From an uncultured Myxococcales bacterium (GTDB lineage: Bacteria > Myxococcota_A > UBA9042), in the NCBI GenBank assembly GCA_937915965.1, contig CALGHC010000821.1:1-33148 (forward strand): a DNA stretch of 33,148 nucleotides, written 5' to 3'. Below are positions 12,390 to 33,148 of this stretch, in pieces. Position 1 is the stretch's first letter. Every line of letters starts with the position of its first letter. The notes beneath the pieces were generated by a model. It did not search any database. It saw nothing but the letters and a program-made list of their open reading frames with translations, and had not been told where the DNA came from. The translations under genes were made by a program, and so were the position numbers.

Positions 12390-14786
12390 GTGAGCGCGAC
12401 CCGATCGACCGCGACTGAGACCGTCCAGCTGGCCCTGCCGCGGCTGGCCGATCTGGGCGTCGCTTTTGTCTACCTGCACGCCCAGCAGGGTCCTGATTTC
12501 TTTGCAGATGTGCCGTTCTGCTGGGCTGCGGGCGAGCTCCGAGCGCTGGGCGTCGCCGCCGATGTCGTGCACGCCCGCCTGCCTCGCGGCGACCCGGCCG
12601 CCGCCGCGCCGCTGATCGACGAATTGATCGCCACGATCGGCCGCCTGGGCCACGGACTCGTCGTCTTCGAGCACCTCTGGCTCGCCGATCTCGTCTCGCG
12701 CATGCAGAGCGAGCTGGGCGCGCTGGTCTGCGAGACCGACGCCAACGCGGTCCTCGCTGGCCAACGGGTCGATTTTCGGCTGCGCTGGTTTGTTCAACAT
12801 CGTCAGCCCCTGCTCGACCTCGTCGCCGCGCTGCGTGCCGGCACCGATCTCATGGCGGTGCGCAACCTCGTCGCCTGGCCGCCGGAAGCGCCTGCGCCCC
12901 TGACCAGTCGCCGGCAGGAGCGCTTCCCCGCCGAGCCCGACTGGTTGCGCGCGTTTTGCCCCATTACCGACGCGATCGAGATCGGCGGGCTATCTGGCGG
13001 CAGCGACGCGCCGCTGCGCAAGACCCTCGACACCAACAGTGGCTGCCCGTACGCCCGCGATGTGCGCCGCAATCCGCATTTCGCTGACCTTGACCTCGAC
13101 GCCCTCGATCCCGTCTACGCCGTCACCCTCAAAGGGTGCTCCTTTTGCGAACTGGGTGGCGACTACCGCGCCCTCACAGCCGACCAGAGCGTCGCCGTTC
13201 ACGTCGCTCAGATCGGCTGGTATCAACGACATCTGGGGCGGCTCGACGAGGTCGTCCTGCGCGATCAGTCGGCGATCCGCTACCTGCCCGAGCTCATCGC
13301 CGCTTGTGTCGAGGAGGGGCTGGCGCCGTTGGGTTTCCTCGTCCCTGCCCGCGGTGACGCGATCTTGCGTGATGGCGAGCGTCTCGAAGCGGCTGCCCGG
13401 GCGGCGGCCGGCAGCGGCAACTGGTTCACTTTATACCTGATCGGCTTCGAGTCGTTCTCACAGTCGCAGCTCGATCTGTACAACAAAGGTGTCTCCGTCG
13501 CTGAATACGCTGCTGCCCTCGCCCAGATGCGAGATCTGCGCGATCGCTGGCCAGGCGTCTACCGAATGGAGGCCTACGGTGCGTCAAGCTTCATCCTCTT
13601 CAACCCGTGGACTCGACTCGAGGACCTGGATGAGACCGTGGCCTTCTGCAAGGACCACGGGGCGCACCAGCTGGCCCATGGCTGGACCCTGACTCGGCTG
13701 CGGTTGCAGCCCCACTTGCCGCTGTACTGGCGGGCCCGGGCCGACGGCCTGATCGTCGACTCTGCGCCGCACGCTGATCGCGGCGCCGCCTTCACCGGCT
13801 ACGGCGGTGAGAGCGCCTGGCGGTACCGGGAGGCGCGTGTCGGCGTGATCGAGGATGCAGAGCGGCGCCTTGCTCGCCACGTGCGGGTCGACGAGTCGGT
13901 CGGTTTGCTCGACACGGTGCTCGACTGGGCGCGAGCGCGTTGGCCCGATGCAGACGCGCCGGCCTCGACCCAGGACGGCGAACTCGAGGCGCTGGAGGCG
14001 GCCTGGCAGACGCTGCGAGGCCAGTGGCGGCCACAGGACGGGGTCTCGGGATCCGGCGCCGGCACCCGCGACGCGGGTCCGCTGCAGATCACCTTGGCGT
14101 CACCGCACTCGGACCCGGTCGCGGCACCACCAGTGGGTCTCCGCGCGCCAAGCGCCGGCCGCACAATCCTGCTCGGCGACGCGTGCAACAACCGTTGCCG
14201 CACCTGTCTGGGCGAACACGGCCGCTACGAGACTGGCGTCGCTCGGCTGCGTGCGGCGGTCGAGGCGGCCGCCCGTCGCCACGGTCGCGTGGTCCTGGCC
14301 GGCCGCGAACCGACCCTACAGCGCGCCTTGCCGCGCCTGATCCGCGCCGCGCGGGCCGCCGGCGCCAGCCGCATCGAGCTGGTCAGCAATGGTCGCGCGC
14401 TCGCCGCTTCCGGGGTCATCGAGCGCCTCGCCGCCGCCGGTCTGACCACACTCCTTCTCAAACGCCATCGTCTCGCGGACAGCGACGAAGACCGCTACGC
14501 CCAGGCCCAAGGAGCTGGCGCGCAGCTTTGGCTGGGACTCGCTCGGCTGGCTCAGGTCGCACCGCACATCAGCTGGACCCTGCTGCTGGTACCGACCCGC
14601 GACGCATTCGACGAAGCCCCAGCCCTGGTCGAGCGCGCCGCGGCGGCGGGGGCGTCTGCCGTGCAGATCCAGGTGCGCGCCGGCGAGGCGCCACTCGCTC
14701 ACCTCGCGGCCTTTGGCGCTGCCGTCACGGCTGCCCGTCGCCGCGCCGCCGAGCTCGGCCTGCGTGTCGATGTGGACGGATTCTAA
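12390..14786 (+). CDS. Radical SAM-like protein with two Cys-motif regions (B12-rSAM-like half plus C-terminal rSAM domain)
   Basis: Region 1: NSGCPYARDVRRNPHF...TLKGCSFCELGGDY; region 2: LLGDACNNRCRTCLGEHG (CxxxCxxC) followed by AGREPTLQRALPRLIRAARAAG, ELVSNGRAL. GTG start. Confidence 0.75.
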   Translation: MSATRSTATETVQLALPRLADLGVAFVYLHAQQGPDFFADVPFCWAAGELRALGVAADVVHARLPRGDPAAAAPLIDELIATIGRLGHGLVVFEHLWLADLVSRMQSELGALVCETDANAVLAGQRVDFRLRWFVQHRQPLLDLVAALRAGTDLMAVRNLVAWPPEAPAPLTSRRQERFPAEPDWLRAFCPITDAIEIGGLSGGSDAPLRKTLDTNSGCPYARDVRRNPHFADLDLDALDPVYAVTLKGCSFCELGGDYRALTADQSVAVHVAQIGWYQRHLGRLDEVVLRDQSAIRYLPELIAACVEEGLAPLGFLVPARGDAILRDGERLEAAARAAAGSGNWFTLYLIGFESFSQSQLDLYNKGVSVAEYAAALAQMRDLRDRWPGVYRMEAYGASSFILFNPWTRLEDLDETVAFCKDHGAHQLAHGWTLTRLRLQPHLPLYWRARADGLIVDSAPHADRGAAFTGYGGESAWRYREARVGVIEDAERRLARHVRVDESVGLLDTVLDWARARWPDADAPASTQDGELEALEAAWQTLRGQWRPQDGVSGSGAGTRDAGPLQITLASPHSDPVAAPPVGLRAPSAGRTILLGDACNNRCRTCLGEHGRYETGVARLRAAVEAAARRHGRVVLAGREPTLQRALPRLIRAARAAGASRIELVSNGRALAASGVIERLAAAGLTTLLLKRHRLADSDEDRYAQAQGAGAQLWLGLARLAQVAPHISWTLLLVPTRDAFDEAPALVERAAAAGASAVQIQVRAGEAPLAHLAAFGAAVTAARRRAAELGLRVDVDGF

Positions 14787-14928
14787 GCACACCGAGCGCT
14801 TCGTCGAGATCGGCACAGTCGAGGCCCGCTTTCGACAGGGGGCCGAGTCATCGATATCCTGCCAGGCCCGTCGCGCCCGCCCCACGCTTCGGTCCGCCGC
14901 GCATAGCGCTGCCGTCGAGGAGTCCGCC

Positions 14929-17900
14929 ATGTCCGATCGCTCTCAGCACACCGTCGCGCCCCATCCCGCGCCGCGGATGTCGGCGTGCCCCTCATCCACG
15001 CGTCGCGTCGTCGCGTGGATGGTCACCTGCAGCCTCGCCCTGATGGGCGCATGCGGCGACAACGACGAAGCGGTGGTCGGGCCGGCGCCCGGCGCCGGGG
15101 ACGCCGCCACCTCTGGTGATGGCGGCGTCGGCGTCGGGGCGGTGGTTGACGGCGGTGCAGTCGACGGCGCGTCCGCTGATACAGCATCCGCTGACAGCGT
15201 GTCCGCTGACGGGGCGTCGGTTGACGCCGGGGTCGCCGAAGCGGGTCCGACGGACGCAGACGTGGTCACCGAGGGCTGCTCGGACACCAATCCGTGCCCG
15301 GCCGCACAGGGTCCTTGCACGCAGGCGTTCTGCCACGACGACGGCAGCTGCAGCGACGAGCCACAACCGGCGGGCGCGCCTTGCGACGACGGTGACGCGT
15401 GCTCGCTGGGCGATCAGTGCGCCGACGGGATCTGCAAACCCGGCGCGTCTGCCGGTTGCGACGATGGCAACGTTTGCACGGCCGACGCTTGCGCGGCGGC
15501 CAGCGGCTGCACCCACGACGTCACCGCTGGTCTTTGTAGCGACGGCGACGCTTGCACCAGCGGCGACGCGTGCAGCGAAGGTGCTTGCGCGTCTGGGGGC
15601 CCGGTCGGCTGCGACGATGGCAACCCCTGTTCCGCCGATAGCTGCGATCCTGGCTCGGGTTGTCTGCACGACCCGACTCCCGGCGACTGCGACGACGGCA
15701 ACGCCTGTACGACCACGGACAGTTGCAATGGCGCCCTGTGCATGCCGGGTGCGGTCGTCGACTGCGAGGACGGCAACGGCTGCACGGTCGACAGCTGCCA
15801 CCCGGTCGATGGCTGCATCCACGCCTCTTCCGCCGCCGCCTGTGATGACGGCGATGCTTGCACGACGGCCGACGCGTGCGCGGACGGCGCCTGCGCCGGC
15901 GGCAAGCAGGTCGCATGCAGCGACGGCAACCCGTGCACCACGGACAGCTGCGAGGCCTCGTCTGGCTGTGTCTTCGCCAACCACACCGACGCCTGCGATG
16001 ACGGCAACGCTTGCACGATCGCCGACGCGTGCCTCGCTGGCCTCTGCCTGCCGGGTGCGGCGACGGCCTGCGATGACGGTAACCCCTGCACGACGGACGC
16101 GTGCGCACCCAAGAGCGGCTGCCAGGCCACCGCCAACACGCTGCCCTGCGACGATGGCGACGCGTGCACCACCGGCGATGCCTGCGCTGGCGGTAGCTGT
16201 GGCGGTGGGCCGCCGCCCGTATGTGACGACGGCAACCCGTGCACCGACGACAGCTGCGGCGCTGTTGCCGGCTGTCAGCATCTCGTCAACGCCAAGGCTT
16301 GTGACGACGGCAACGCTTGTTCTGGCGATGACCACTGCACCGGCGGTGCGTGCAAGCCCGGCAAGCCCGCCGCCTGCGACGACGACAACCCTTGCACAAC
16401 GGAGACCTGTGACCCGGGCGAGGGCTGCAAGAACATCGCGAACCTCCAGCCATGCAGCGACGGTGACAGCTGCACCGAGGCGGACACCTGCGCCGAGGGC
16501 AGCTGCTCGGCCGGCGCACCGTTGAAGTGCGCCGACGGCAACCCGTGCACGACCGACGCCTGCGATCCCGCCAAGGGCTGTGTCTTCACCCAGTCCAGCG
16601 ACCCTTGCGATGACGGCAGCGCATGCACCACCGCCGACCTGTGCAAGGCGGGCGTCTGCAATGGCGGGCCGATCCTGGCTTGCGATGATGGCAACGTCTG
16701 CACGATCGACGCTTGCGAACCCGCACTTGGCTGCGGACACACAGACAGCGACCCGCCGTGCGACGACGGTAGCGTCTGCACGGTCGGAGACGCGTGCGCC
16801 GGCGGCGCGTGCCAGCCCGGCAAGCTGATGGCCTGCGACGACGGCAACGCGTGCACGGCCGATGCGTGCGACTCGGTCGCGGGCTGCAGCCACACGCCGA
16901 CGACCGCCGGCTGCGACGACGGCAACGTCTGCACGCTAGGCGACGTGTGCAAGGCCGGCGTCTGCAAGCCGGGGAATGCGATCGCCTGCGACGATGGCGA
17001 GGCATGCACCGCCGACACCTGCGACGCAGAAGCCGGCTGTGTCCACAGCGCCGTCACCGTGCCCTGCACGGATGGGGACGCCTGTACGGTCGGGGACGCT
17101 TGCCTCGTGGGCTCTTGCGAGCCGGGCGCCGAGGCGGCGTGCGACGACGGCAACGGCTGTACCGTGGACTCGTGCCTCGCCGCGAGCGGATGTGCGCACG
17201 TCGCGTCGAGCGCACCCTGCGACGACGGTGACGCCTGCACGGTCGGCGACGCCTGCGCAGGCGCGGCGTGCCAGCCGGGCGATTCGGTGGTCTGTGACGA
17301 CGAGGAGCACTGCACGACCGACTACTGCGACGGCAAGAAGGGCTGCCTCACCTTGGCGAACGCGCTGACCTGCACCGATGACGACGCATGCAGCGAGGAC
17401 GACGGCTGCGCGGGCGGCGCCTGTGTCGGCGCGACCGTCGACTGCGACGACGGCAACCCATGCACCGCCGACAGCTGCGAGGCCGAGGCAGGCTGCCAGC
17501 ACGGCGCGGTCGCCGATGAGACCACGTGTGGAGCCTCCGGGCTGTGCTACGGCGGCACCTGCTCGGTGGGCAGTGACATCAACCCGGCGCCGGACTGCCT
17601 CGCCATCGCCGAGACCCTGTCTGGCACCGCCAGCGGCCTGTACTGGCTCGATCCAGATGGCCCGGGCGGCGCTGACAAGTTCCAGACGTGGTGCGAGATG
17701 AAGCTCGCTGGCGGCGGCTGGACCCTGCTCGCTGTCGTTGGTGGCAGCGCGCGGCCGCAGCTGTGGACCGGCGGCGCACACCCCCAGCCGGGCGCGACCT
17801 GGTACGGCACGCCGGGCGCGGACCTGGGCGATATCCTCGACCCCGCAAAGAATGGCGGAGTCGTCGCCAACTTCAGCATCAACGGCGCCGCGATCTTCGC

Positions 17901-18315
17901 CGCATCCGCGAAGCGTGAGGTCCTCGCCTGGGTTGGCGGCAGCACCGACGACTACGTCCTGGTCGCCCTGCCGGATCTGTGCAACCCGTTTGATATTCTG
18001 ACGAATTGCAAGGAAAATACCGTCATGGGATTGAAGGTCATCGACGCAGGCGGCAACACCTTGACGACCAACGGTCAGCTCTGTGGCACGGATGGCGACC
18101 CGTGCGGCTTCAACGAAGCCGGCTTTCATCTGCTCGATGGCGTCGAGGACAACCCTTCGTGTGCATGCCACAACGGCGCAGCCGACAGCGGCAGTCAGGG
18201 CTGGGGCCGCATCTGGACGAGCTTCAATCGTTCCGACGGCGGCTACTGGAACAGCGGCGTGCACAGCGCTTGGAAGGGCGGCTACAACCAGCCAGGAGCG
18301 CTCTTGATTCGCTGA
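14929..18315 (+). CDS. Giant Cys-rich repeat lipoprotein with C-terminal fibrinogen-like domain
   Basis: Start MSDRSQH; ALMGAC lipobox-like; about 28 alternating C(D/S/T)DGxxCT half-repeats; C-terminal DCLAIAETLSGTASGLYWLDPDG...FQTWCEMKLAGGGWTLL. Confidence 0.85.
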   Translation: MSDRSQHTVAPHPAPRMSACPSSTRRVVAWMVTCSLALMGACGDNDEAVVGPAPGAGDAATSGDGGVGVGAVVDGGAVDGASADTASADSVSADGASVDAGVAEAGPTDADVVTEGCSDTNPCPAAQGPCTQAFCHDDGSCSDEPQPAGAPCDDGDACSLGDQCADGICKPGASAGCDDGNVCTADACAAASGCTHDVTAGLCSDGDACTSGDACSEGACASGGPVGCDDGNPCSADSCDPGSGCLHDPTPGDCDDGNACTTTDSCNGALCMPGAVVDCEDGNGCTVDSCHPVDGCIHASSAAACDDGDACTTADACADGACAGGKQVACSDGNPCTTDSCEASSGCVFANHTDACDDGNACTIADACLAGLCLPGAATACDDGNPCTTDACAPKSGCQATANTLPCDDGDACTTGDACAGGSCGGGPPPVCDDGNPCTDDSCGAVAGCQHLVNAKACDDGNACSGDDHCTGGACKPGKPAACDDDNPCTTETCDPGEGCKNIANLQPCSDGDSCTEADTCAEGSCSAGAPLKCADGNPCTTDACDPAKGCVFTQSSDPCDDGSACTTADLCKAGVCNGGPILACDDGNVCTIDACEPALGCGHTDSDPPCDDGSVCTVGDACAGGACQPGKLMACDDGNACTADACDSVAGCSHTPTTAGCDDGNVCTLGDVCKAGVCKPGNAIACDDGEACTADTCDAEAGCVHSAVTVPCTDGDACTVGDACLVGSCEPGAEAACDDGNGCTVDSCLAASGCAHVASSAPCDDGDACTVGDACAGAACQPGDSVVCDDEEHCTTDYCDGKKGCLTLANALTCTDDDACSEDDGCAGGACVGATVDCDDGNPCTADSCEAEAGCQHGAVADETTCGASGLCYGGTCSVGSDINPAPDCLAIAETLSGTASGLYWLDPDGPGGADKFQTWCEMKLAGGGWTLLAVVGGSARPQLWTGGAHPQPGATWYGTPGADLGDILDPAKNGGVVANFSINGAAIFAASAKREVLAWVGGSTDDYVLVALPDLCNPFDILTNCKENTVMGLKVIDAGGNTLTTNGQLCGTDGDPCGFNEAGFHLLDGVEDNPSCACHNGAADSGSQGWGRIWTSFNRSDGGYWNSGVHSAWKGGYNQPGALLIR
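15381..17510 (+). repeat. Coding tandem repeat: 14 alternating pairs of CDDGDACTxxDxC / CDDGNPCTxDxC half-repeats
   Basis: Read from the ORF translation; strict alternation of the two half-repeat types. Confidence 0.85.
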
Positions 18316-19235: not shown

Positions 19236-21182
19236 TCAGCGGACCATCAGCCAGATCGGCGCCGCCTTGCAGTAGCCCGCGACGCACTTGTTGCCGTTGA
19301 GCGCGCCGTTGCCTTCGTTGTCGAGGTAGCCGTTGGTGCCGTCGACGGTTGACCAGATGTCGAGCCAGGCGTCCGTTCCACCGTGGCTCTCGGAGATGCC
19401 ATTGGCGGGATAGAAGTGAAGAGACGCGACCGTCGCCGGCCCCGTGGTCTTGCCGCCGACGACCTTGGAGAAGCCGCCGAAGGTCGGGCTGTCGTTGCCG
19501 CTCGCGCCCTGCAGATAGGCCGCGAAGCCGGCGTGGGCGCTCTTTTCCCAGACGACCCGCGGGTCAGCGGCGGTGGCAAACCGCCACATCGCCTGGGTCC
19601 AGGCGAGACCATCGGCGATCTTTGAGGCGCAGTCGTCGGACTTGCTGACGCCGCACGCCGCGGCGAACTTGGCGCTCCAGGCGACGAAGGCCGAGCTGAC
19701 CTTGGTGTTCACAAGCGTCCAACCGCCGCCGTCTGTGGTCATGTCGCAAAACACCTGGAACGCGACGTCCTTGGGCTTGAGCCAGTACAGGCCGTCGCCC
19801 TTGCCGTCGCCGGCTTGCTGGATCGCCAGGCACGAAGTCGCCGGGTTCGCCTCGGTGCCGACTGGCGTCGTGCAGCCGGTGGTCTTGAAGGCAGCGCAGC
19901 CGTCTTTGCAGCCGAGCACACCGATCCACTCGATGCCCAGAATCGTCGCGCAGGTCTCCAGGCCGACGTTCTTGCCGTCGCAGGTCTCGACCCCTGTTCG
20001 GATAAAGCCGTCGCCGCAGATCGCCTTCTGACAGGCGACGCACGCATCGGTCTGGTCGGTGTTGCCGTCGTCGCAGACCTCGACGCCGTCAAAGACCACG
20101 CCGTCCCCACAGACGTTCTTGTCGCACTTGTTGGTGCAGCTGTCGGTGTCGGTCTGGTTGCCGTCGTCGCAGGTCTCGGGCGGGTCGACCTCCTGATCGC
20201 CGCAGATCGGCACCAGGGCGAGCTGACGCCAGGCGCCCTTGCGGTGGATCCAGGTGTTGCCGGAGTCCTTGCGGTAGACGAGCTGGCCGTCCTTGGCCAC
20301 CTTGGCCATCTCGTCGTCGCTCGTCGCGATCCGCGTCATCAGGGCCGGCGCGCCGTCGACGCATGCGGTGCCGCCGTCGCTGGCCACGTCGAGGACGCAT
20401 GCGTCCGCGGGGAACTTGCCTACGCCGACACCAGCCATGAACGCGTTGGGTTTGGCGAAGGTGTTCTTGGTGTCAGTGCGCGCGTACGCGGCCAGGACCG
20501 CGGCGTCGAGGTGTTCCGCCGTGATGCAGCCTGTGCACTTGAGATCAGCCGCCTCGAGCGCCTCGAGAGCGGCGCCCTCCTTTTGATTGGCGGCGGCGTA
20601 GGCGAAGGCGAGGGCGCTGCCGGGCACCGAGGCCGGCAACAGCTGTTTGCCGTCGAGCGGGCCGGTCAGTTCGTCGGCGACCTTGGCATGCCAGGCCTGC
20701 GGCAGCCGCGCCAGAGGCCTGCGCGCGAGCTCTGGGTCGCCGCCGACCTGAACGCCGATCCACGGCGAGGCGTGATCGGTGAAGAACACGTCGGCGAGCG
20801 GGTTCTTCTTGTCGGCCGTGCCTACGTCGAGGGCGAAGCGACCCTGGACGACCGGCACCGCGACGTGGATCTCCTTCCACAGTGACTCCACCGCGTCGGC
20901 CGTCTCGTAGAGTTGCACGGTCAGGGCGTATTCGCCGTCCGCCACGGGGCCGCCCCCCACCGTCGTCAGCGCGCCTTGCATCGGGATCGACGCGGAAGCG
21001 GCGTAGGCGGTCTGGGGCGCGACGATCGCGGCCAAGACGGTGGCAATCAGGACGGTAGCGCTCAGGACGGTAGCGCTCAGGACGGTGGCGCTCCAGACGG
21101 TAGCGCTCAGGACGGTAGCGCTCCGGACGGGGGCGCTCAGGACGGTATCGACAGCGCAAACGTGGCCGGGCCGGTTGGACAT
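19236..21182 (-). CDS. Secreted protein with myxobacterial Cys-rich (DUF4215-like) repeats and C-terminal fibrinogen-like domain
   Basis: CGDGVVFDGVEVCDDGN..., CGDGFIRTGVETCDG; SCLAIQQAGDGKGDGLYWLKPKDVAFQVFCDMTTDGGGWTLV; start MSNRPGHVCAV at 21182. Confidence 0.8.
   Translation of the reverse strand: MSNRPGHVCAVDTVLSAPVRSATVLSATVWSATVLSATVLSATVLIATVLAAIVAPQTAYAASASIPMQGALTTVGGGPVADGEYALTVQLYETADAVESLWKEIHVAVPVVQGRFALDVGTADKKNPLADVFFTDHASPWIGVQVGGDPELARRPLARLPQAWHAKVADELTGPLDGKQLLPASVPGSALAFAYAAANQKEGAALEALEAADLKCTGCITAEHLDAAVLAAYARTDTKNTFAKPNAFMAGVGVGKFPADACVLDVASDGGTACVDGAPALMTRIATSDDEMAKVAKDGQLVYRKDSGNTWIHRKGAWRQLALVPICGDQEVDPPETCDDGNQTDTDSCTNKCDKNVCGDGVVFDGVEVCDDGNTDQTDACVACQKAICGDGFIRTGVETCDGKNVGLETCATILGIEWIGVLGCKDGCAAFKTTGCTTPVGTEANPATSCLAIQQAGDGKGDGLYWLKPKDVAFQVFCDMTTDGGGWTLVNTKVSSAFVAWSAKFAAACGVSKSDDCASKIADGLAWTQAMWRFATAADPRVVWEKSAHAGFAAYLQGASGNDSPTFGGFSKVVGGKTTGPATVASLHFYPANGISESHGGTDAWLDIWSTVDGTNGYLDNEGNGALNGNKCVAGYCKAAPIWLMVR
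21033..21152 (-). repeat. 15-bp tandem repeat, 8 units (consensus + strand CAGGACGGTAGCGCT), inside a signal-peptide coding region
   Basis: Units at 21033,21048,21063,21078,21093,21108,21123,21138; encodes (SATVL)n-like hydrophobic repeats. Confidence 0.9.
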
Positions 21183-21347
21183 GGTGGTACTCCAAGAGCC
21201 CGAATCGCGGGCGGGAACGTCGAACACACTACCGTCTGACCCGGGCTGCGGCAAACCGTCGTTGTCGCCGCGTGCCGGTCTTCTCGCCGTGCAGGCGCCC
21301 ATCCCTGGTTCGCAGGTCGCCCCCGCCGAGCGACCTCGCTCGGCGCG

Positions 21348-25073: not shown

Positions 25074-26098
25074 GCAACCGCATCGCCATCTTCGCTATTG
25101 GCGCGATCGTCCTCGGCTACCTCGCCATCGCCAACTGCGTGCTCGTCGTCAACGAGTACGAACAGGTCATCCTCACCGCGTTCGGTGAGCCGGTTGGCGA
25201 ACCGATCGTCGAGCCCGGCCTGACCTTCGTGATGCCCTGGTACAGGCATCACACCTACTCCAAGCGGCTGCTGCGCTGGGACGGCGAACGCAGCCAGATC
25301 CCGACCAAGGACAAGCGTTTCATCTGGGTCGACGTCACCGCACGCTGGCGCATTACGGACCCGCTGAAGTTCCTGCAGTCACTCGGATCGTACAACCGCG
25401 CTCAGACACGCCTCGACGACATCATCGACTCCGAGGTGAGGACGATCGTCTCGGAGAACAACCTCATCGAGGTGGTGCGCAGCCGCGCCGGCGCTTTGGA
25501 GATGCCAGACGAGGCGACCGCGGCCGTTTCGCGCGGTGGCCAGCGCCTCAGCCAGCCACCGCTGATGGTCGCCAAGGGTCGTGAGGTCCTGCAGCGCGAG
25601 ATGGTCGCCAAGGCGACCGCCAAGACCTCGGAGAGCTTCGGCATCGACATCGTCGACGTGCGCCTCAAGCGCATCAACTACATCGACGAGGTCCAGCAGA
25701 ACATCTTCAAGCGGATGATCGCCGAGAGGCAGAAGGTGGCCGAGCAGTATCGATCGGAGGGCAAGGGCCGAGCCGCCGAGATCTTGGGCCGCATGGAGCG
25801 TCAACTAAAGGAGATCCGCTCCGAGGCCTACCGGAAGTCCAGCGAAATCAAGGGGGCGGCCGACGGCGAAGCCGCGCGGGTCTACGCCGACGCCTACAAC
25901 CAGGACCCCGAGTTCTACGCCTTTCAGAAGAGCCTCGAGGCCTACAAGCTGATCTTTGGCGCCGAGGGCAAGGGACGACGCTCGACCCTGCTGCTCTCGA
26001 CTGACTCCCAGCTGCTGCGCTACCTGCCCGACCCGTATGGCCGCAGCAAGACGCCGGCGGCGGTCGCGACGCCGCCGACCACCGCAGGCCACCGCTAG
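25070..26098 (+). CDS. hflC: Protease modulator HflC
   Basis: Band-7 domain, VLVVNEYEQVILTAFGEPVGEPIVEPGLTFVMPW, RIERQLKEI..., paired with hflK. Confidence 0.93.
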   Translation: MSNRIAIFAIGAIVLGYLAIANCVLVVNEYEQVILTAFGEPVGEPIVEPGLTFVMPWYRHHTYSKRLLRWDGERSQIPTKDKRFIWVDVTARWRITDPLKFLQSLGSYNRAQTRLDDIIDSEVRTIVSENNLIEVVRSRAGALEMPDEATAAVSRGGQRLSQPPLMVAKGREVLQREMVAKATAKTSESFGIDIVDVRLKRINYIDEVQQNIFKRMIAERQKVAEQYRSEGKGRAAEILGRMERQLKEIRSEAYRKSSEIKGAADGEAARVYADAYNQDPEFYAFQKSLEAYKLIFGAEGKGRRSTLLLSTDSQLLRYLPDPYGRSKTPAAVATPPTTAGHR

Positions 26099-26133
26099 CG
26101 GCCTCGGCGTGCGAGGTCAGACCAGGCTCGCCG

Positions 26134-26406
26134 TCAGCCTCGCCACAGCGTCCACGCGCCCACCGCGATGAAGCCCACGCCAGCGATCCGCGTCAGCACG
26201 GCCGGATCGACCAGCCTCGACACGCCAGCGCCGACCGCGACGCCGATCGCCGTCGCCGCCACCAGCGCCGCCGCGGCTCCGGCGAAGACCGTCAGCTTCG
26301 GATTGTCGCCCTTGGCGGCGTAGAGCATCGTCGCGAGCTGGGTCTTGTCGCCGAGCTCCGCGAGGAAGACGGTCACGAAGACCGTGGCCAGAAGCTTGGG
26401 GTCCAT
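26134..26406 (-). CDS. TMEM165/GDT1 (UPF0016) family protein, half-size
   Basis: MDPKLLATVFVTVFLAELGDKTQLATMLYAAK; single E-x-G-D-K-T motif, about 90 aa. Confidence 0.85.
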   Translation of the reverse strand: MDPKLLATVFVTVFLAELGDKTQLATMLYAAKGDNPKLTVFAGAAAALVAATAIGVAVGAGVSRLVDPAVLTRIAGVGFIAVGAWTLWRG

Positions 26407-26473
26407 TGTTGAGTCCGTGGGATGGGGGTGAGTGAGGGTCGAGGGGCGCCGGCGATGCCGGGACGTCGCGAAG

Positions 26474-27115
26474 TCAGGACGTGGCGCTGCCGTCGCTGCG
26501 GTCGGCGCGTCGGCACAGGCAGGTGACGAACTCCTGGGCAGCGCCCCAGGGCGTGATGTGGGCATCGGTGGCACAGGTGACGCGCTCGAACTTCGCGTCG
26601 AAGACGCCGCTGAGCGCGTCGTCGTCGTAGCGGACCACCGGCAGGCCGCTGCATTTCTCCGGGCCGTTCGGACCGAAAGTCGAGATGATCAACCGGCCGC
26701 CCGGCCGCAGCGCCCGCTCTACCTGAGCGACGTAGGCCGCGCGGTCGTTTGGGTCGACGAGAAAGTGGAACACCGCGCGGTCGTGCCAAAGGCCGTAGCC
26801 CGCCGCCGGCAGCGCGACCTGGGTCACGTCGCCGACCAGCCAGCGCACCGCATGGCCCCGCTCGCCCATGGCGGCCCGCGCCTTCGCCAGGGCGGCCGCA
26901 GAGATGTCGAGCACCGTGACGTCGGTGAAGCCGCGATCGATCAGATCGGCCGTCAGCGTCGAGGCGCCGCCGCCGATGTCGATGATTGGCGCGCTACACG
27001 CGAGCCCGGCGGTATCGATCAGCTCGAGCGAGCGGGCGAGGTGCGGCGCGTACCAGCTCAGACCCTGCGGATCGCGGCTCTTGTAGACGTGGTCCCAGTG
27101 GTTGGCGCGGCTCAT
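26474..27115 (-). CDS. Class I SAM-dependent methyltransferase
   Basis: MSRANHWDHVYKSRDPQGLSWY; IIDIGGGASTLTADLIDRG, VTVLDISAAALAKAR; contained in a longer open frame to 27781. Confidence 0.82.
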   Translation of the reverse strand: MSRANHWDHVYKSRDPQGLSWYAPHLARSLELIDTAGLACSAPIIDIGGGASTLTADLIDRGFTDVTVLDISAAALAKARAAMGERGHAVRWLVGDVTQVALPAAGYGLWHDRAVFHFLVDPNDRAAYVAQVERALRPGGRLIISTFGPNGPEKCSGLPVVRYDDDALSGVFDAKFERVTCATDAHITPWGAAQEFVTCLCRRADRSDGSATS

Positions 27116-27379
27116 GCGAGGAGAATGGCGCGCGGCGAGCCTGGCGGCAAGGTCGCCTGGGGCGAGGCGTGGTTGGCTTCCGGTCGTGCCGAGCGCCTGA
27201 GCCAGAAACCACGCCGTCTCCGACGCGACGCCGCGCTTGCCCTTGACGATCTCGTTGACTCGCTGGACGGGCACCCCGATGCGGCCGGCGAAGGCGACCT
27301 GGGTCAACCCGAGCGGCCGCAGGACCTCCTTGACCAGCACCTCGCCGGGGTGGGTTGGAATGCGCTGTTCGGGAAGCAT
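27116..27379 (-). pseudogene. HigA-type XRE antitoxin remnant, C-terminally truncated and in frame with the methyltransferase
   Basis: MLPEQRIPTHPGEVLVKEVLRPLGLTQVAFAGRIGVPVQRVNEIVKGKRGVASETAWFLAQALGTT then divergence; compare intact copy 29114-29401. Confidence 0.75.
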
Positions 27380-27389
27380 GGTCGTCACC

Positions 27390-27778
27390 TCAGCGGTGGT
27401 CGACGAGCCGCACGTCGTCCGCGTCGGAGGCCGCTTCCGCCCGTTGGCCAGCTTGCGGCCCTGGGCGTCCTTGTGGACGGCCAGGCGGCCGATCAGAGCG
27501 ACGGGCAGCGGGTACCGTGGCAGTCGCTTCTTGATGGCCGTGCGAAGTCGCGTCGATTCTACGTTGGCCATCGACAGCGTGTAGAAGCCGAGGACCGACG
27601 GGTCCGCCGTGTCCGCGCCCGCCAGGACGAAGGTGCTGCCGATGCCGCGTTGGTGGTTGGCGACCGCGTGTGTGGCGAAGAAGCCGTCGAGGGCATCTTC
27701 GCCACACACAAAGCCACTGGCCGCGTCCGCGTCGGTGATCTGGCGGGTGAGCGGTCGAAGCGGGCGACCGTTGGCCAT
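27390..27778 (-). pseudogene. GNAT-type toxin (TacT-like) N-terminal part joined to the tail of a higB gene
   Basis: RPLTRQITDADAASGFVCGEDALDGFFATHAVANHQRGIGSTFVL...LPVALIGRLAVHKDAQGRKLA then junction; overlapping frame ends DADDVRLVDHR*, the HigB C-terminus. Confidence 0.7.
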
Positions 27779-27924
27779 CAACCCGCCCCGGTAAGTGCAG
27801 CCTTGAGGGCGTCGTTGGGCTCGGGCGGATCGTCGATGACCTGACTCTTGCTGAGGCCCAGCTGTTCAGCCAGTTCTTGCAGCGCCAGGGCTCTGCTGTC
27901 CGGTACTGTTGCTTCGACTTGCAT
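27778..27924 (-). CDS. Short RHH/DUF1778-like antitoxin partner of the GNAT toxin
   Basis: 48 aa MQVEATVPDSRALALQELAEQLGLSKSQVIDDPPEPNDALKAALTGAG; TGA/ATG overlap with the GNAT frame; not in the supplied ORF list because of its length. Confidence 0.6.
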   Translation of the reverse strand: MQVEATVPDSRALALQELAEQLGLSKSQVIDDPPEPNDALKAALTGAG

Positions 27925-27938
27925 GGTTGGCGCCCCTC

Positions 27939-27956
27939 TCCCTCAAATTTGAGGGA
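27939..27956. promoter_or_regulatory. 18-bp perfect palindrome TCCCTCAAATTTGAGGGA, candidate TA operator
   Basis: Perfect dyad 15 nt upstream of the antitoxin ATG. Confidence 0.6.
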
Positions 27957-28120
27957 AATCTCAGCGTACGGTCGAAGGCTGGCGGGGTCTGTGGCAGTCA
28001 AGGTCGAAGATGGCAACGTCGCCGAGCTCTTCGACCAGCGCCCATCGCCACGATGTGGTGCCTGGCGCCGGTCGCGGCACGCTCGCCGGCCGGCCCATTG
28101 TCCGGGTTCGAGGCGCGGAC

Positions 28121-28309
28121 GTGCACCATCTCAGTCCCCGATCCGCACGCCGGCTTGGCGTCACTCTTGTCGCGGTCACGGTCATGGCGGTGGCCTGCGC
28201 CGATGGCAACACGGCGGCGGACAACGATCCCGATACCGCCGGTGCGGTCGAGGACGCATCTGCAGGCGCGGTGGCTCAAACATTGAGCCGGAAGTTTGTC
28301 GCTCAGTAA
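28121..28309 (+). pseudogene. Truncated lipoprotein N-terminus
   Basis: MHHLSPRSARRLGVTLVAVTVMAVACADGNTAADNDPDTAGAVEDASAGAVAQ then TLSRKFVAQ* encoded by the 70-bp repeat. Confidence 0.5.
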
Positions 28310-28344
28310 TTACGGAAGGTTGCGGGAGGAATCCCCAGCCTGTC
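28278..28344 (+). repeat. ~70-bp dispersed repeat, copy A
   Basis: aaACATTGAGCCGGAAGTTTGTCGCTCAGTAATTACGGAAGGTTGCGGGAGGAATCCCCAGCCTGTC. Confidence 0.75.
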
Positions 28345-28358
28345 CTCGTTCGGACCTA

Positions 28359-28673
28359 TCACGACCCATCGTTGTCGCCATCCGGCGCAACGCCCGGCGG
28401 GAACAGCCTGTGTCCCTCGAAGACGGTCAGCATATGCACCTCTTCGCCGAGCACCCGGTAGACGAGTCTGTAGGAACGTAGCAAGACCTCGCGCACGTCG
28501 TCTTGCTCCAACTCCGGTACGACGCGCCCGGCCATGGGCATGGAAGCGGCGTCCCTGGCGCGGGCTTGGAGGCGAGTCACCCAGTGGCGAGCCGCAGCCG
28601 CGTTGTCCCGGGCGATGTACCGACGAATCTCGTCGAGATCGCGCAGCGCAAGCGGTAGCCAACGGAGCTTCAT
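28359..28673 (-). CDS. ParE/RelE-family toxin
   Basis: MKLRWLPLALRDLDEIRRYIARDN...REVLLRSYRLVYRVLGEEVHMLTVFEGHRLFP. Confidence 0.88.
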   Translation of the reverse strand: MKLRWLPLALRDLDEIRRYIARDNAAAARHWVTRLQARARDAASMPMAGRVVPELEQDDVREVLLRSYRLVYRVLGEEVHMLTVFEGHRLFPPGVAPDGDNDGS

Positions 28674-28966
28674 GGCGTGTCGAGATGCCCGAACTTGCCG
28701 TCGAGCAACGCGTTCAGGTCGTTGTCGTCGTCGATGGCCATGCCGGCCTCGGATTCCGCGAGCCCCTGATGAACCGCAGCGACGAATCGCTCCCGCTCGG
28801 TCAGGCGATCGTAGTCTTCTGGCGTGACCAGCACCCCGGCCGGTCGGCCATTCTGGGTGATGACCACCGGTCGGCTGTGCTCACGCAATCCACGCATGAT
28901 GCGGGATGCGTGGGTCTTGAACTCGCCGATGGGGATGATGTCGTCTTGGATGCTGATGGGCTTCAT
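28670..28966 (-). CDS. Phd/YefM-family antitoxin
   Basis: IIPIGEFKTHASRIMRGLREHSRPVVITQNGRPAGVLVTPEDYDRL; overlaps the toxin start. Confidence 0.9.
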   Translation of the reverse strand: MKPISIQDDIIPIGEFKTHASRIMRGLREHSRPVVITQNGRPAGVLVTPEDYDRLTERERFVAAVHQGLAESEAGMAIDDDNDLNALLDGKFGHLDTP

Positions 28967-29008
28967 GGGTCCTCCGGAGCGGACCCTCGCATTCTAGTCT
29001 GAATCGTG

Positions 29009-29027
29009 GTCTGAATTCAAGTCAGAC
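29009..29027. promoter_or_regulatory. Inverted repeat GTCTGA-N7-TCAGAC, candidate Phd operator
   Basis: gtctgaattcaagtcagac, with an additional gtctgaat at 28997-29004. Confidence 0.45.
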
Positions 29028-29094
29028 ATTGAGCCGAAGTGTGGGCGTCCTGTGATTCCAAGCGCTTGGTGCGGAGATCCCCACTTTGTCACCA
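29024..29094 (+). repeat. ~70-bp dispersed repeat, copy B
   Basis: AGACATTGAGCCGAAGTGTGGGCGTCCTGTGATTCCAAGCGCTTGGTGCGGAGATCCCCACTTTGTCACCA. Confidence 0.8.
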
Positions 29095-29113
29095 TGGAGC
29101 CCGCAGCCTCCGC

Positions 29114-29401
29114 TCATCCCGCCCGTGCTACGGGCTCCACCTCGTGGTCGGGGCGCCCCGTGGCGAGGTCGTAGCCGCTCTGGAGGTTCATCCAGAACTG
29201 CGGGGTCGTGCCCAGCGCCTGTGCCAGCAGCCAGGCTGTCTGCGACGTGACGCCTCGCTTGCCCTTGATGATCTCGTTGACCCGCTGGACGGGCACGCCG
29301 ATGTGTCGGGCGAAGGCCACCTGCGTCAGCTCCAGGGGACGCAGGAACTCTTCGAGCAGCACCTCGCCGGGGTGCGTCGGGACTCGGTTCTCGGGAAGCA
29401 T
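29114..29401 (-). CDS. higA: HigA-family XRE antitoxin
   Basis: MLPENRVPTHPGEVLLEEFLRPLELTQVAFARHIGVPVQRVNEIIKGKRGVTSQTAWLLAQALGTTPQFWMNLQ. Confidence 0.93.
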   Translation of the reverse strand: MLPENRVPTHPGEVLLEEFLRPLELTQVAFARHIGVPVQRVNEIIKGKRGVTSQTAWLLAQALGTTPQFWMNLQSGYDLATGRPDHEVEPVARAG

Positions 29402-29411
29402 GATCGTCACC

Positions 29412-29702
29412 TCAGTGGTAGTCCACGAGCCGCACGTCGTCGGCGCCGCCATCGGACCAGCGGAAGACAACCCGCCACTGGTCGTTCACCCGGATGCTGT
29501 GCAAGCCGGAGAGGTCGCCACCCAGAGCCTCCAGCCGGTTGCCCGGCGGTACCCGCAGGTCTTCCAGCCGAGCGGCAGCCTCGATCATGTCCAGCTTCCT
29601 CATGGCGGCCCGCACGAGTTTGCTGTCCAGCCTGCGGACCCTGCTGGTGGGGCGACCGTGGTACAGGTCCGCCGTGAGCTTGTCGTCGAACGTGCGGATC
29701 AT
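29412..29702 (-). CDS. higB: HigB/RelE-family toxin
   Basis: MIRTFDDKLTADLYHGRPTSRVRRL...LEALGGDLSGLHSIRVNDQWRVVFRWSDGGADDVRLVDYH; upstream of higA in the canonical order. Confidence 0.93.
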   Translation of the reverse strand: MIRTFDDKLTADLYHGRPTSRVRRLDSKLVRAAMRKLDMIEAAARLEDLRVPPGNRLEALGGDLSGLHSIRVNDQWRVVFRWSDGGADDVRLVDYH

Positions 29703-29854
29703 GCAGGCCACCTCGCATCCTGAGTGCATCTTGCATGATTACACGGCAACCGTGAAGGCATGAATGTCGTGGCTGCATCGCCTGGAAATCCAAAGCCGAA
29801 TCGGACCGCGATTCTGTGGGGAGCCAGATGAAATTACAGCCAAACGTCTGCTTC

Positions 29855-29924
29855 AGACGTTGAAGCGTAGTGCAGGCTGTCTGTGATTGCGGGCACTTGG
29901 GGCGGCAATCCCCACTTTGTCACC
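29855..29924 (+). repeat. ~70-bp dispersed repeat, copy C
   Basis: AGACGTTGAAGCGTAGTGCAGGCTGTCTGTGATTGCGGGCACTTGGGGCGGCAATCCCCACTTTGTCACC. Confidence 0.75.
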
Positions 29925-30037
29925 GTACGCTTCTCGAAAGCGACGAAAGGAGCGCAGGGACGCCCCTTGCAGTTTGCGCTCCGGTAGTGTTACAAAACGT
30001 CGGCACATATAGGCAAAGGCAGACATTTAGACACGAC

Positions 30038-30658
30038 ATGGCTGACCACGACCGAGACATCTCCCCAGTCCAGCAGCGGGCTCTTGCCCTGGTTCGAGAG
30101 GTAGGTGTGCTGCGGCCCCGTGACCTCGATTGCCACGACATCCCCCGGGAGCACCTGCGGCGACTTCGGGACAAGGGGCTCCTCGAACAGGTGGGGCGAG
30201 GGCTCTACGTGCTCCCCGACGCCGATCTTGGAGCCCACTTCGGGCTCGTCACGGCCTGCAAGCGGGTACCACATGGCGTCGTCTGCCTGCTGTCCGCCCT
30301 GCGGTTTCACGAGATGACGACGCAGGCGCCGTTCGAGGTCTGGATGGCAGTTGACCGTCGAGCCCGACTCCCCAAGACGCCAGAGCTTCCCCTGCGCATC
30401 GTTCGGTTCTCCGGCAAGGCGCTTCGATTCGGGGTCGAGCAGCACGAGGTCGAGGGTGTCGCGGTCCGGGTGTACGGACCGGCCAAGACGGTGGCCGACT
30501 GCTTCAAGTACCGCAACAAGATCGGCGTCGATGTCGCCGTCGAGGCGCTGAGGGACTACTTTCGCCTTCGGAAGGGGACGGTCGACGACCTATGGATGTA
30601 CGCCGGGGCCTGCCGGGTCAAGTCTGTGATGCGCCCCTACATGGAGGCCCTGGCGTGA
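30038..30658 (+). CDS. abiEi: AbiEi-family antitoxin / transcriptional regulator
   Basis: wHTH RPRDLDCHDIPREHLRRLRDKGLLEQVGRGLYVLPD; PHGVVCLLSALRFHEMTTQ; VYGPAKTVADCFKYRNKIGVDVAVEALRDY. Confidence 0.9.
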   Translation: MADHDRDISPVQQRALALVREVGVLRPRDLDCHDIPREHLRRLRDKGLLEQVGRGLYVLPDADLGAHFGLVTACKRVPHGVVCLLSALRFHEMTTQAPFEVWMAVDRRARLPKTPELPLRIVRFSGKALRFGVEQHEVEGVAVRVYGPAKTVADCFKYRNKIGVDVAVEALRDYFRLRKGTVDDLWMYAGACRVKSVMRPYMEALA

Positions 30659-31455
30659 CCTCGTCCAAGGTGAAGAACCTGCCCGCCTCCGTCCGTGCCC
30701 GCCTGCTGAACCTTGCCCGGGAGCGTGGAGAGGACTTCACCGGGCTGCTCACGAGGTACGTCCTGGAACGCTTCATGTTCCGGCTGGCCTCGTCGGAGTA
30801 CGCTGATCGCTTCGTCCTCAAGGGCGCCACGCTCTTCGCCATTTGGAGCGATCAACCGCACCGACCGACCCGAGACATCGACCTGCTGGGCTTCGGCGTG
30901 AACGACGTGCCCGCCCTGGTGGAGGTGTTCGGGCAGGTCTGTCAGCAGGATGTGGAGCCCGACGGCCTCGTCTTCGCCGCCGACTCTGTGCAGGGCGGAC
31001 TCATCCGAGAGGATCGGATCTACGAGGGCGTGCGAGTCACGCTGATGGAGGAGACCGTGGTGGCCGAGAAGCTCCAGGCGATGGTCGCTCTTGGCATCGT
31101 GAACAGCCGGATGAAGGACTTCTACGACATCTGGGTGCTGGCCCGAGACAACGCCTTCGAGGGTTCGGTGCTGAGCGAGGCTGTCCGCCGAACCTTTGCT
31201 CGGAGGCGTTCACCCTTGCAGTCGAGGCCGCCCGTGGCCCTGACTTTGGAGTTCTCGGACGACCCTGCGAAGGCAGTCCAGTGGCGAGCGTTCCTTCGTC
31301 GAGGTCGGCTCGTTGCGGGTGAACCCGGACTTCACGAGGTCGTCCAACTCCTTGCCGGGTTCCTGCTCCCGATGCTCGGCCTGTCCGAGTCCGGCGCTTC
31401 TGTCCACCAACAGTGGCCGCCCGGCGGGCCTTGGCGCTCGGTCCCGGGGCGCTGA
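30656..31455 (+). pseudogene. AbiEii/AbiGii-family nucleotidyltransferase toxin with probable internal in-frame deletion
   Basis: GTG start; ADRFVLKGATLFAIWSDQPHRPTRDIDLLGFG; YEGVRVTLMEETVVAEKLQAMVALGIVNSRMKDFYDIWVLAR lacks the intervening QIDIGFGD-type segment expected in the family. Confidence 0.75.
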
Positions 31456-31543
31456 TCTGGGACGAACGGGGCCGACTCGGGCCGGATTCTGGACTTGGCG
31501 TCCGTCATAAGTGTTTGAAAATAGGGACCAAGCGAGCCGGTCT

Positions 31544-31613
31544 AGACATTGAGCCGGAAGTTTGGCGGCTTGTAATTCCAAACGGTTGCGGCCGTTGTCT
31601 CCAGTTTGTCGCC
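31544..31613 (+). repeat. ~70-bp dispersed repeat, copy D
   Basis: AGACATTGAGCCGGAAGTTTGGCGGCTTGTAATTCCAAACGGTTGCGGCCGTTGTCTCCAGTTTGTCGCC. Confidence 0.8.
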
Positions 31614-31651
31614 GGTTCGGCTGAACAGAGCCTCGGGCCGAGCGGGGCCGT

Positions 31652-31706
31652 GGTTTCCTAAATGTGTCGAGTTTCCTTGCGAGGAAACTTGGTGTATAAA
31701 GGAAAC
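31652..31706. promoter_or_regulatory. Nested inverted repeats GTTTCC..GTTTCC..GGAAAC..GGAAAC, candidate AbiEi-like operator
   Basis: Perfect AGTTTCCT-TGCG-AGGAAACT at 31670-31689 plus outer GGTTTCC and GGAAAC abutting the ATG. Confidence 0.6.
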
Positions 31707-32747
31707 ATGAGCCAACTCGAACGACAGGCCGTCGACGAACTCCCCGCCCGCATCGAGGCCTGGCTCGGCGTGCCGGTTCGGGTCGAGCGAGAAGTCCGCA
31801 GGGCAGGCACCAAGTTCGACCTGGTCATCCATACATCGACCAGCGCCTTCGTCTTCGAGGTGAAGGGGCGAGACGACTTGGCGACCCTGGAGCGTGCGTA
31901 CCATCATCTCCGAGCGTACACCGAGTTGGACGCCAGCGCCGTCCCTGTTCTCGTCGTGCCCTTCATGGGGCCGACGGGCAGGGGGTGGGCCGAGGAGCGT
32001 GGCCTCGCCTGGATGGATCTGTCTGGGAACGCCGACGTCCGGGCTCCTGGCGTCCGGGTGTTGATCGAGGGCAAGTCCAACCTCTTCACCTCGCCGGGGA
32101 GGCCGTCGACCGCCTTCAGCCCGAAAGGATCCCGCCTCGCCCGGGTCCTGCTCGCCGACCCAGAGCGTGCGTGGCGACAGGTCGAGCTCGTGGGGGAGAC
32201 GGGACTCAGCGCCGGCTACGTCAGCAAGGTCGTTGGTCGGCTGCTCGACGACGGCCTGTTGGCGAGGAGAGGCGCCGGCGCCGTTCTGTCCCCAAAACCC
32301 GGCCTGCTCCTCGACGCCTGGGCACAGGACTACAACTTCAGCAAGCACGAGGTCCTGCGCTACCACATGGTCGGACGCACCGGCCTGAAGGTCTTGCGTG
32401 GACTTGCCGAGCGCCTTGGAGAGGTGGACGACCTGCAGTGGGCCGCCACTGGCTTGGCTGCCGCTTGGCTGCAGGACGGCTTTGCCGACTTCCGGCTCGT
32501 CTCGGCCTTCGTCTCACGGCCACCGGCCGAGCGCGAGGCCCCGGCGCTGCGGCGGGTCGACAAGGGGGAGAACGTCTGGCTGATCGTGCCCAACGACGAG
32601 GGGGTGTTCCACGGCGTCGCCGACAATGAGGGCGTCCCCTGTGTACTCCCGGTGCAAACGTGGCTGGACCTCGCTGGACATCCGGAGCGTTCCGAGGAGG
32701 CCGCCGAACACCTGCGGTCGAGCCGCCTGACTTGGAGCAACCGATGA
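31707..32747 (+). CDS. Type IV TA AbiEi-like regulator with N-terminal nuclease-like segment
   Basis: KFDLVIHTSTSAFVFEVKGR; WMDLSGNADVRAPGVRVLIEGKSN; RPSTAFSPKGSRLARVLLADPERAWRQVELVGETGLSAGYVSKVVGRLLDDGLL. Confidence 0.75.
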   Translation: MSQLERQAVDELPARIEAWLGVPVRVEREVRRAGTKFDLVIHTSTSAFVFEVKGRDDLATLERAYHHLRAYTELDASAVPVLVVPFMGPTGRGWAEERGLAWMDLSGNADVRAPGVRVLIEGKSNLFTSPGRPSTAFSPKGSRLARVLLADPERAWRQVELVGETGLSAGYVSKVVGRLLDDGLLARRGAGAVLSPKPGLLLDAWAQDYNFSKHEVLRYHMVGRTGLKVLRGLAERLGEVDDLQWAATGLAAAWLQDGFADFRLVSAFVSRPPAEREAPALRRVDKGENVWLIVPNDEGVFHGVADNEGVPCVLPVQTWLDLAGHPERSEEAAEHLRSSRLTWSNR

Positions 32748-33148
32748 CCGACCCGAAGTACGCCTCCGACTACGACAGGGGATTGGCTGGCGAGGCTCGC
32801 GGCTGTGCCTGACGGCGGCCACGATCCTGGGCGACCTTCTCGACGACATCGTTGTGGTCGGCGGGCTGGTGCCGTACCTCATCGTCGATCAGGAGCAAGC
32901 CGCCGAGCCGCACGTCGGCACCCGTGATCTGGATCTGGGCCTCGCCCTGGCCGTGCTCGATGGCGGGCGCTACGAGGAGATCAGCGAGAGCCTTCGTCGG
33001 GAGGGCTTCAAGGCAATGGTGATGGACGACGGCGGGATCCGGCGGCCCACTTGGGTGCTCCCGGGCACGCTCATCAGCATCGACTTTCTCATCTGCCACA
33101 GACCGCGCTATCTGATCCTCCCAAGGTCGCCTGAACTGATCACCCCCA
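32744..33148 (+). pseudogene. Frameshifted nucleotidyltransferase (toxin partner), truncated by window edge
   Basis: Frame from ATG 32744: MTDPKYASDYDRGLAGEARGCA*; continues in another frame from about 32800: LCLTAATILGDLLDDIVVVGGLVPYLIVDQ...HVGTRDLDLGLALAVLDGGRYEEISESLRREGF. Confidence 0.7.

Follow-up and report, generated by a model that had tools for sequence, protein, structure and literature searches.

Within a stretch of 33,148 nucleotides from the metagenome-assembled genome (MAG) of an uncultured Myxococcales bacterium (contig CALGHC010000821.1; G000:C821:1-33148), hereafter the window, we observe four copies of a repeat of ~70 bp (copies A to D, at 28276-28347, 29022-29093, 29853-29924, and 31542-31613) among a run of toxin-antitoxin (TA) genes. 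The copies align without gaps, with 61 to 78% identity to copy B, and all have the same orientation, as the first-pass annotation had described, being on the + strand as read in the window. Its other two descriptions also hold: exactly one TA module is present in each interval between copies (by Pfam, ParE + Phd, HigB + HTH_3, and AbiEi_4 + AbiEii), and the TA genes point in both directions. The interval after copy D is cut by the contig end. We consider it likely that the repeat is the right end (RE) of small cassettes and that these are stacked in tandem at the 3' end of the conserved GTPase gene ychF by site-specific, recombinase-driven accretion. The features of the array are listed below, where the core is the 11 bp that close an RE, LE denotes a left end, and the strand given for an RE is that of its R2 match.

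28280..28349 (-), repeat copy A, RE of the Phd-ParE cassette (R2 match and junction listing); core CGGCTCAATGT at 28280-28290, then T-TGA in frame
28359..28673 (-), ParE-family toxin (Pfam PF05016, E=3e-17); stop codon ~10 bp from copy A
28670..28966 (-), Phd/YefM-family antitoxin (Pfam PF02604, E=2.5e-15)
29026..29095 (-), repeat copy B, RE of the HigBA cassette (R2 match and junction listing); core CGGCTCAATGT at 29026-29036, then C-TGA
29114..29401 (-), HigA-type HTH antitoxin (Pfam PF01381); stop codon ~19 bp from copy B
29412..29729 (-), HigB-like toxin (Pfam PF05015, E=4e-20)
29819..29840 (+), LE of the HigBA cassette: inverted arm motif GGGAGCCAGATGAAATTACAGC, separated by 16 bp from core C (p=0.01 against shuffles in the arm-motif scan)
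29857..29926 (-), repeat copy C, RE of the AbiEi/AbiEii cassette (R2 match and junction listing); core CGCTTCAACGT at 29857-29867, then C-TGA
30038..30658 (+), AbiEi-family antitoxin (Pfam PF13338)
30655..31455 (+), AbiEii nucleotidyltransferase toxin (Pfam PF08843, E=6e-32; PADLOC AbiEii, 2e-88)
31506..31527 (+), LE of the AbiE cassette: inverted arm motif CATAAGTGTTTGAAAATAGGGA, separated by 18 bp from core D (arm-motif scan)
31546..31615 (-), repeat copy D, RE of the next cassette (R2 match and junction listing); core CGGCTCAATGT at 31546-31556, then C-TAG
31707..32747 (+), second AbiEi-like gene, in a cassette cut off by the contig end

Repeat distribution and the anchor at ychF

The first-pass annotation had proposed a profile of the four copies as a probe of the host genome and its relatives. 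With such a sequence-only profile, built from the window copies alone (R1), the same repeat is recovered from relatives as co-oriented clusters, with E values down to 1.8e-11 in G020 and 3.1e-11 in G139; since matches at this level are obtained in other genomes, the repeat is not a product of chance. The clustered matches are mostly 0.7 to 3.5 kb apart and come from members of the same family (f1; G003, G005, G006, G008, G013, G015, G016, and G020) as well as from other families. A single DNA copy used as the query in relatives gave matches that were too weak, and neither the search of plasmid DNA with copy B nor that of phage DNA with copy A gave a match. Over 85,462 species genomes, a DNA pattern of the right end was found in 10 contigs, all of which belong to uncultured Myxococcales/Myxococcota MAGs. 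Throughout, counts of related copies are not independent, and MAG contigs break inside arrays.

The window's genome is an incomplete MAG of 944 contigs, in which the four window copies are the only strong ones and one degenerate copy occurs elsewhere, after an MqsA gene. This MqsA-like gene (G000:C198, L178, 494-979) is 80% identical to that of a cassette in G020 and is followed, ~10 bp past its stop codon, by the degenerate right end; it is a fifth cassette, on another contig. Being short, dispersed looking, and in copy D partly palindromic, the repeats could also be taken for termini of insertion sequences (IS) or miniature inverted-repeat transposable elements that happen to flank TA genes, as the first-pass annotation had offered as alternatives. 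We give this explanation practically no weight, because in its own genome the repeat is confined to the array and the one degenerate copy, and the strong matches of relatives come from ychF arrays or else from short contigs and contig ends that carry no ychF.

In G005 and G020, the array begins directly after the last codon of ychF. The repeat is found downstream of ychF on the same contig in f1 (G005, G006, G008, G009, G010, G015, G016, G020, and G021) and outside it (G049 and G050 of f5; G082, G106, G139, and G185 of f30), amounting to 15 contigs from at least three families of the phylum. The orientation is constant, with the reverse complement of the repeat parallel to ychF, and every f1 genome that carries repeat and ychF on one contig shows the array downstream of the gene. 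In G103 (f33), a weak and partial match occupies the corresponding position relative to ychF, and a weak R1 match of G202, located on the wrong side of its ychF, may be due to chance. The anchor is invisible from the window alone; we infer from relatives that the window's ychF should lie beyond position 33148 on the - strand.

The 11-bp core CGGYTYAAYGT, allowing for small variants, closes every full right end; it is identical to the 3' end of ychF and spells the last codons of that gene, R-F/L-N-V. Even at a distance from ychF, internal copies retain R-(F/L)-N-V, and the core is followed by an in-frame stop codon in 26 of 30 of them, compared with a chance of 3/64 per site, a figure that ignores the relatedness of the copies (of the 31 rows in the junction listing, one, L041:5476, does not represent a repeat). 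The left end of the next cassette contributes the stop and, before it, the base that completes the Val codon, and each cassette therefore restores the end of ychF when it adjoins the gene. Judged by their sequence, the internal junctions look like former ychF junctions displaced outward. An unusual, host-specific AATAT is common to ychF and both repeats of G049. The direct repeat is the 3' end of a conserved gene that stays intact, and in relatives tandem units of the same orientation follow this gene, both of which characterize accretion at gene 3' ends; the window's own ychF is off the contig. We also considered the repeat as protein coding, given a minus-strand frame ending in R(L/F)NV-stop that resembled a conserved C terminus. 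This was rejected, as the frame is broken in copy A and many relatives, and the apparent C terminus arises because the core is the end of ychF.

In G044, right ends were obtained at L155, L174, and L168, one of them after an AbiEi/AbiEii pair, and the sequence after ychF is nearly the same as that after one right end; sister cassettes therefore share a left end.

Cassette cargo and exchange between genomes

Nearly all cassettes carry a TA or phage defense module, and units are mostly 0.1 to 3.5 kb long. The modules comprise ParE/Phd, HigBA, AbiE, GNAT toxin-like, PIN-domain VapC-like, and MqsA-like systems, as well as an Mrr type IV restriction enzyme, IetAS (AAA + S8 peptidase), HEPN/Toprim-N, an SLFN-g3 helicase, and an SNF2 helicase. 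Geneless 122-bp units are present in G008, G009, and G016, directly behind ychF or inside arrays, and probably there is one in G013 too (the geneless units are at L091 3794-3916, L092 4888-5010, L038 1025-1147, and L034 8524-8650).

Movement of cassettes was assessed by all-against-all alignment of the array loci. Between genera, ychF homology ends 8 to 17 bp after the start of the core in most pairs, and it likewise stops there between G082 and G106, which belong to the same genus. A cassette of 3,430 bp, containing an SLFN-g3 helicase gene together with sequence resembling HigBA, shows 98.8% identity between G013 and G020, which represent two species. Its left neighbor in G020 is ychF, and in G013 it is a HigBA cassette; a GNAT cassette (96%) lies on its distal side in G020 and on its proximal side in G013. 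The cassettes of the window also have counterparts in other arrays. The AbiE cassette shows 78 to 81% DNA identity to the first cassette after ychF in G011, the HigBA cassette including its RE shows 74% identity over 739 bp to one in the ychF array of G015, and the Phd-ParE cassette shows 77% DNA identity to the first cassette after ychF in G185, a member of another family. The second AbiEi-like gene of the window, without a Pfam or NCBIfam match, is matched across 1.16 kb, at 69% DNA identity, by a part of the G139 ychF island in which an AbiEii-like gene is also present. The suggestion in the first-pass annotation of a cassette array or module-shuffling substrate is borne out here, as module content varies at conserved junctions and whole cassettes swap neighbors exactly at the core; its expectation that copies bracket small accessory modules holds in many genomes. 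At the distal end, a clean empty-site comparison was not obtained from the loci compared.

Such diversity could in principle have arisen with no dedicated enzyme, if an old island behind ychF were diversified by duplication and by homologous recombination between repeats. Consistent with this, HigBA cassettes are often duplicated in tandem, and no enzyme is seen in the f1 arrays. However, at 61 to 78% identity the window repeats are poor substrates for homologous recombination, and neither the in-frame ychF stop supplied by each cassette nor the presence of the same cassettes beside ychF in different families is explained, which makes this origin improbable. For accretion at ychF as proposed above, the sequences themselves show where the cassettes lie and which way they face, the identity of the core, the precision of the junctions, the exchange of cassettes, and the cargo held in common.

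The window contains further material around its array. A second HigA-like sequence at 27182..27426 (-) is an 84% repeat of 29204-29448 and is found in one open frame with a GNAT fragment. This open reading frame (26474-27781, -) joins the GNAT N-terminal fragment, the second HigA, and a methyltransferase, and represents probable decayed distal cassettes; the methyltransferase is also found just beyond the last repeat in G139. At the other end, the second AbiEi is followed by an AbiEii-like gene (32745-33148, +) with an apparent frameshift close to its start, where the ATG frame at 32745 soon stops and homology to the G139 protein goes on in another frame. Unrelated to the cassettes, the regions 14713-18315 and 19236-21302 encode long proteins with cysteine-rich repeats of the CDDGN(P/A)CT type and other secreted-looking domains.

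Cassette ends and recombinase candidates

A right end consists of a conserved region of ~60 bp with the arm motif CAAnnnnTTGAAATYACAAG, which sits 12 bp ahead of the core, and then the 11-bp core itself. Beyond the core, the arm motif is found inverted in 15 of 50 left ends (14 at a shuffle p of ≤0.01) versus 1 of 50 in direct orientation, mostly at distances of ~9, 18, or 28 bp. It is missing at junctions without an evident next cassette, namely, copy A of the window, the distal end in G139, and ychF of G001, G014, and G018. In our reading, imperfect inverted half-sites flank the core, e.g., CAAAC...GTTTG in copy A. Judging from the sequence, this core-and-arm anatomy is what a recombinase binding double-stranded DNA would use.

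The first-pass annotation had pointed out GTTTGG-N12-CCAAAC in copy D and a possible folded form; the fold does exist in this copy (z of about -1.8), yet no pair is conserved across 40 copies. Folded as single-stranded DNA, as had also been suggested, individual copies other than D are not clearly better than shuffled sequences. RNAalifold recovered no consensus hairpin, with 0 pairs on 40 copies and 3 trivial pairs on 27 copies, and Rfam gave no match in window positions 26000-33148 at E values up to 1.

These results bear on whether the arrays are integrons, in which case the repeats would be attC sites moved as folded single strands by the integron integrase IntI, and ychF would be a chance neighbor. 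Such a view could accommodate co-oriented repeats with one module each, TA cargo, and geneless mini-cassettes, and IntI genes do exist in the relatives G049 and G139. A search for IntI (TIGR02249) over 27 genomes gave hits above the curated cutoff only there (G049:C96 and G139:C33), off the ychF contigs, and none in f1, where arrays are commonest. In addition, the core has no GTTRRRY box, as CGGYTYAAYGT gives GTTTAAT, GTTCAAY, or GCTCAAY, and adjacency to ychF on 15 contigs would be hard to attribute to chance. Together with the lacking hairpin, this leaves an integron as a very unlikely explanation.

Nonautonomous DDE transposons of the Tn7-like type, with inverted ends and targeting the 3' end of ychF, would offer another route, the core then being a target site duplication. 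The target duplication of Tn7 is 5 bp, whereas the shared core here is at least 11 bp and lies within coding sequence. Also, no transposase, TnsA, TnsB, TnsC, or TniQ was recognized among the array genes examined, with no genome-wide TniQ search made. Left and right ends do carry the arm motif in inverted orientation, and Tn7-like transposons resemble the ychF arrays in their fixed-orientation insertion behind conserved genes and in their defense cargo (PMC8649781, PMC2918618). On balance, we regard this origin as unlikely.

Under recombinase-driven accretion, a cassette would comprise one TA or defense module between a left end, which supplies the ychF stop and the base completing the final Val codon, and a right end. 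A recombinase, in all likelihood a tyrosine recombinase, would act on a free cassette and exchange its core with the one that closes ychF. The incoming cassette would enter beside ychF, the reading frame of which is kept whole, and older cassettes would be shifted distally. Some cassettes may in addition be lost or duplicated through homologous recombination between repeats. Going by the sequence features, a tyrosine-type recombinase is probably the agent, with a putative circular intermediate, and the process may still be active today. The first-pass annotation had advised looking for a tyrosine integrase or a transposase with matching ends. The only candidate enzyme is a tyrosine recombinase (P0002; Pfam PF00589) of G139, encoded within the 31 kb that separate ychF from the right end; a homologous fragment, 50% identical to it, is located between ychF and the right end in G082.

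Several observations weigh against accretion by such a recombinase. None was recognized within the f1 arrays read, the G139 recombinase is without a close homologue in f1, and clustering of the f1 integrases yields no family that separates array carriers from noncarriers. About two-thirds of the left ends are without a recognizable arm motif. Distal array ends do not lie neatly at syntenic chromosome, with homology between G082 and G106 resuming 2.7 to 3.6 kb past the last repeat. In G030, a cluster of three repeats is located at a contig end and ychF is on another contig, and the window contig ends before ychF, with a family-type ychF missing from its assembly. As no recombinase was recognized in the f1 arrays and the clustering singles none out, these arrays may be mobilized in trans or no longer be active.

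Three related observations can be added. One recombinase family common to array carriers was considered and set aside as not discriminating, since it is also present in the noncarrier G001. The G030 cluster (C70, L112, 6848-9093) comprises three co-oriented right ends with a VapC-like cassette, and the ychF of this genome is on C71. The window's genome contains a truncated, divergent ychF-like gene at a contig end (G000:C471, L179, 3560-4450), with 34% identity to the family type, which may be contamination.

Relation to known systems and significance

The ychF arrays share with chromosomal integrons the co-oriented cassettes of single modules, one short recombination site per module, the TA cargo, and a single platform-proximal insertion site. 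They differ in having no IntI beside the arrays, no attC hairpin, and no GTTRRRY, and their platform is a housekeeping gene, not attI. The architecture works like an integron, yet IntI linkage, the attC fold, and GTTRRRY, the three defining features for which it was tested, are lacking; it is not an integron because there is no conserved hairpin and no integron integrase with the f1 arrays.

Staphylococcal SCC elements insert at the 3' end of rlmH (orfX) and form composite arrays that share an att core. They are thus similar to the ychF arrays in inserting at the 3' end of a conserved gene, but they carry their own Ccr serine recombinases and measure tens of kilobases. The ychF arrays fit tandem accretion at a gene's 3' end as in the ssrA islands of Dehalococcoides, with which SCC has been compared (PMC3146451). 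These islands form tandems downstream of a gene that is conserved and present in a single copy, no more than 100 kb away from it. Each is bounded by a direct repeat of the gene's 3' end, next to which there is an additional 15-bp motif specific to the element, and some are without an integration module, which is read as cis-mobilizable (accretion) (PMC3146451). The ychF arrays are alike in their tandem units downstream of a conserved gene and in a direct repeat of its 3' end plus a conserved extra motif. The ssrA islands are targeted to the tmRNA gene, are large, with a serine recombinase in sixteen of them, and carry dehalogenase cargo (PMC3146451), whereas the units at ychF are very small, mostly without an enzyme, and loaded almost only with TA and defense modules. 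A pneumococcal satellite prophage integrates near ychF as well, although its 26-bp att site is upstream, intergenic, and unrelated (PMC10383233). No report of ychF cassette arrays was found in the open-access literature searched.

In one phylum, TA and defense modules would come to lie side by side by arriving as units with a defined end sequence at a fixed, predictable address. Reading downstream of ychF is a check applicable to any Myxococcota genome, and the site is a place to seek new TA and defense systems. The arrays represent a second cassette array architecture beside integrons, and the recombinase question is directly testable. We tentatively suggest, as a possibility short of a likelihood, a cassette-capture platform distinct from integrons, with a dedicated recombinase, double-stranded ends, arm sites about one helical turn apart, and landing on the conserved C-terminal codons of ychF, where each cassette would supply the ychF stop. 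If this is true, the host would gain stacked TA and defense modules, with its conserved GTPase gene unharmed.

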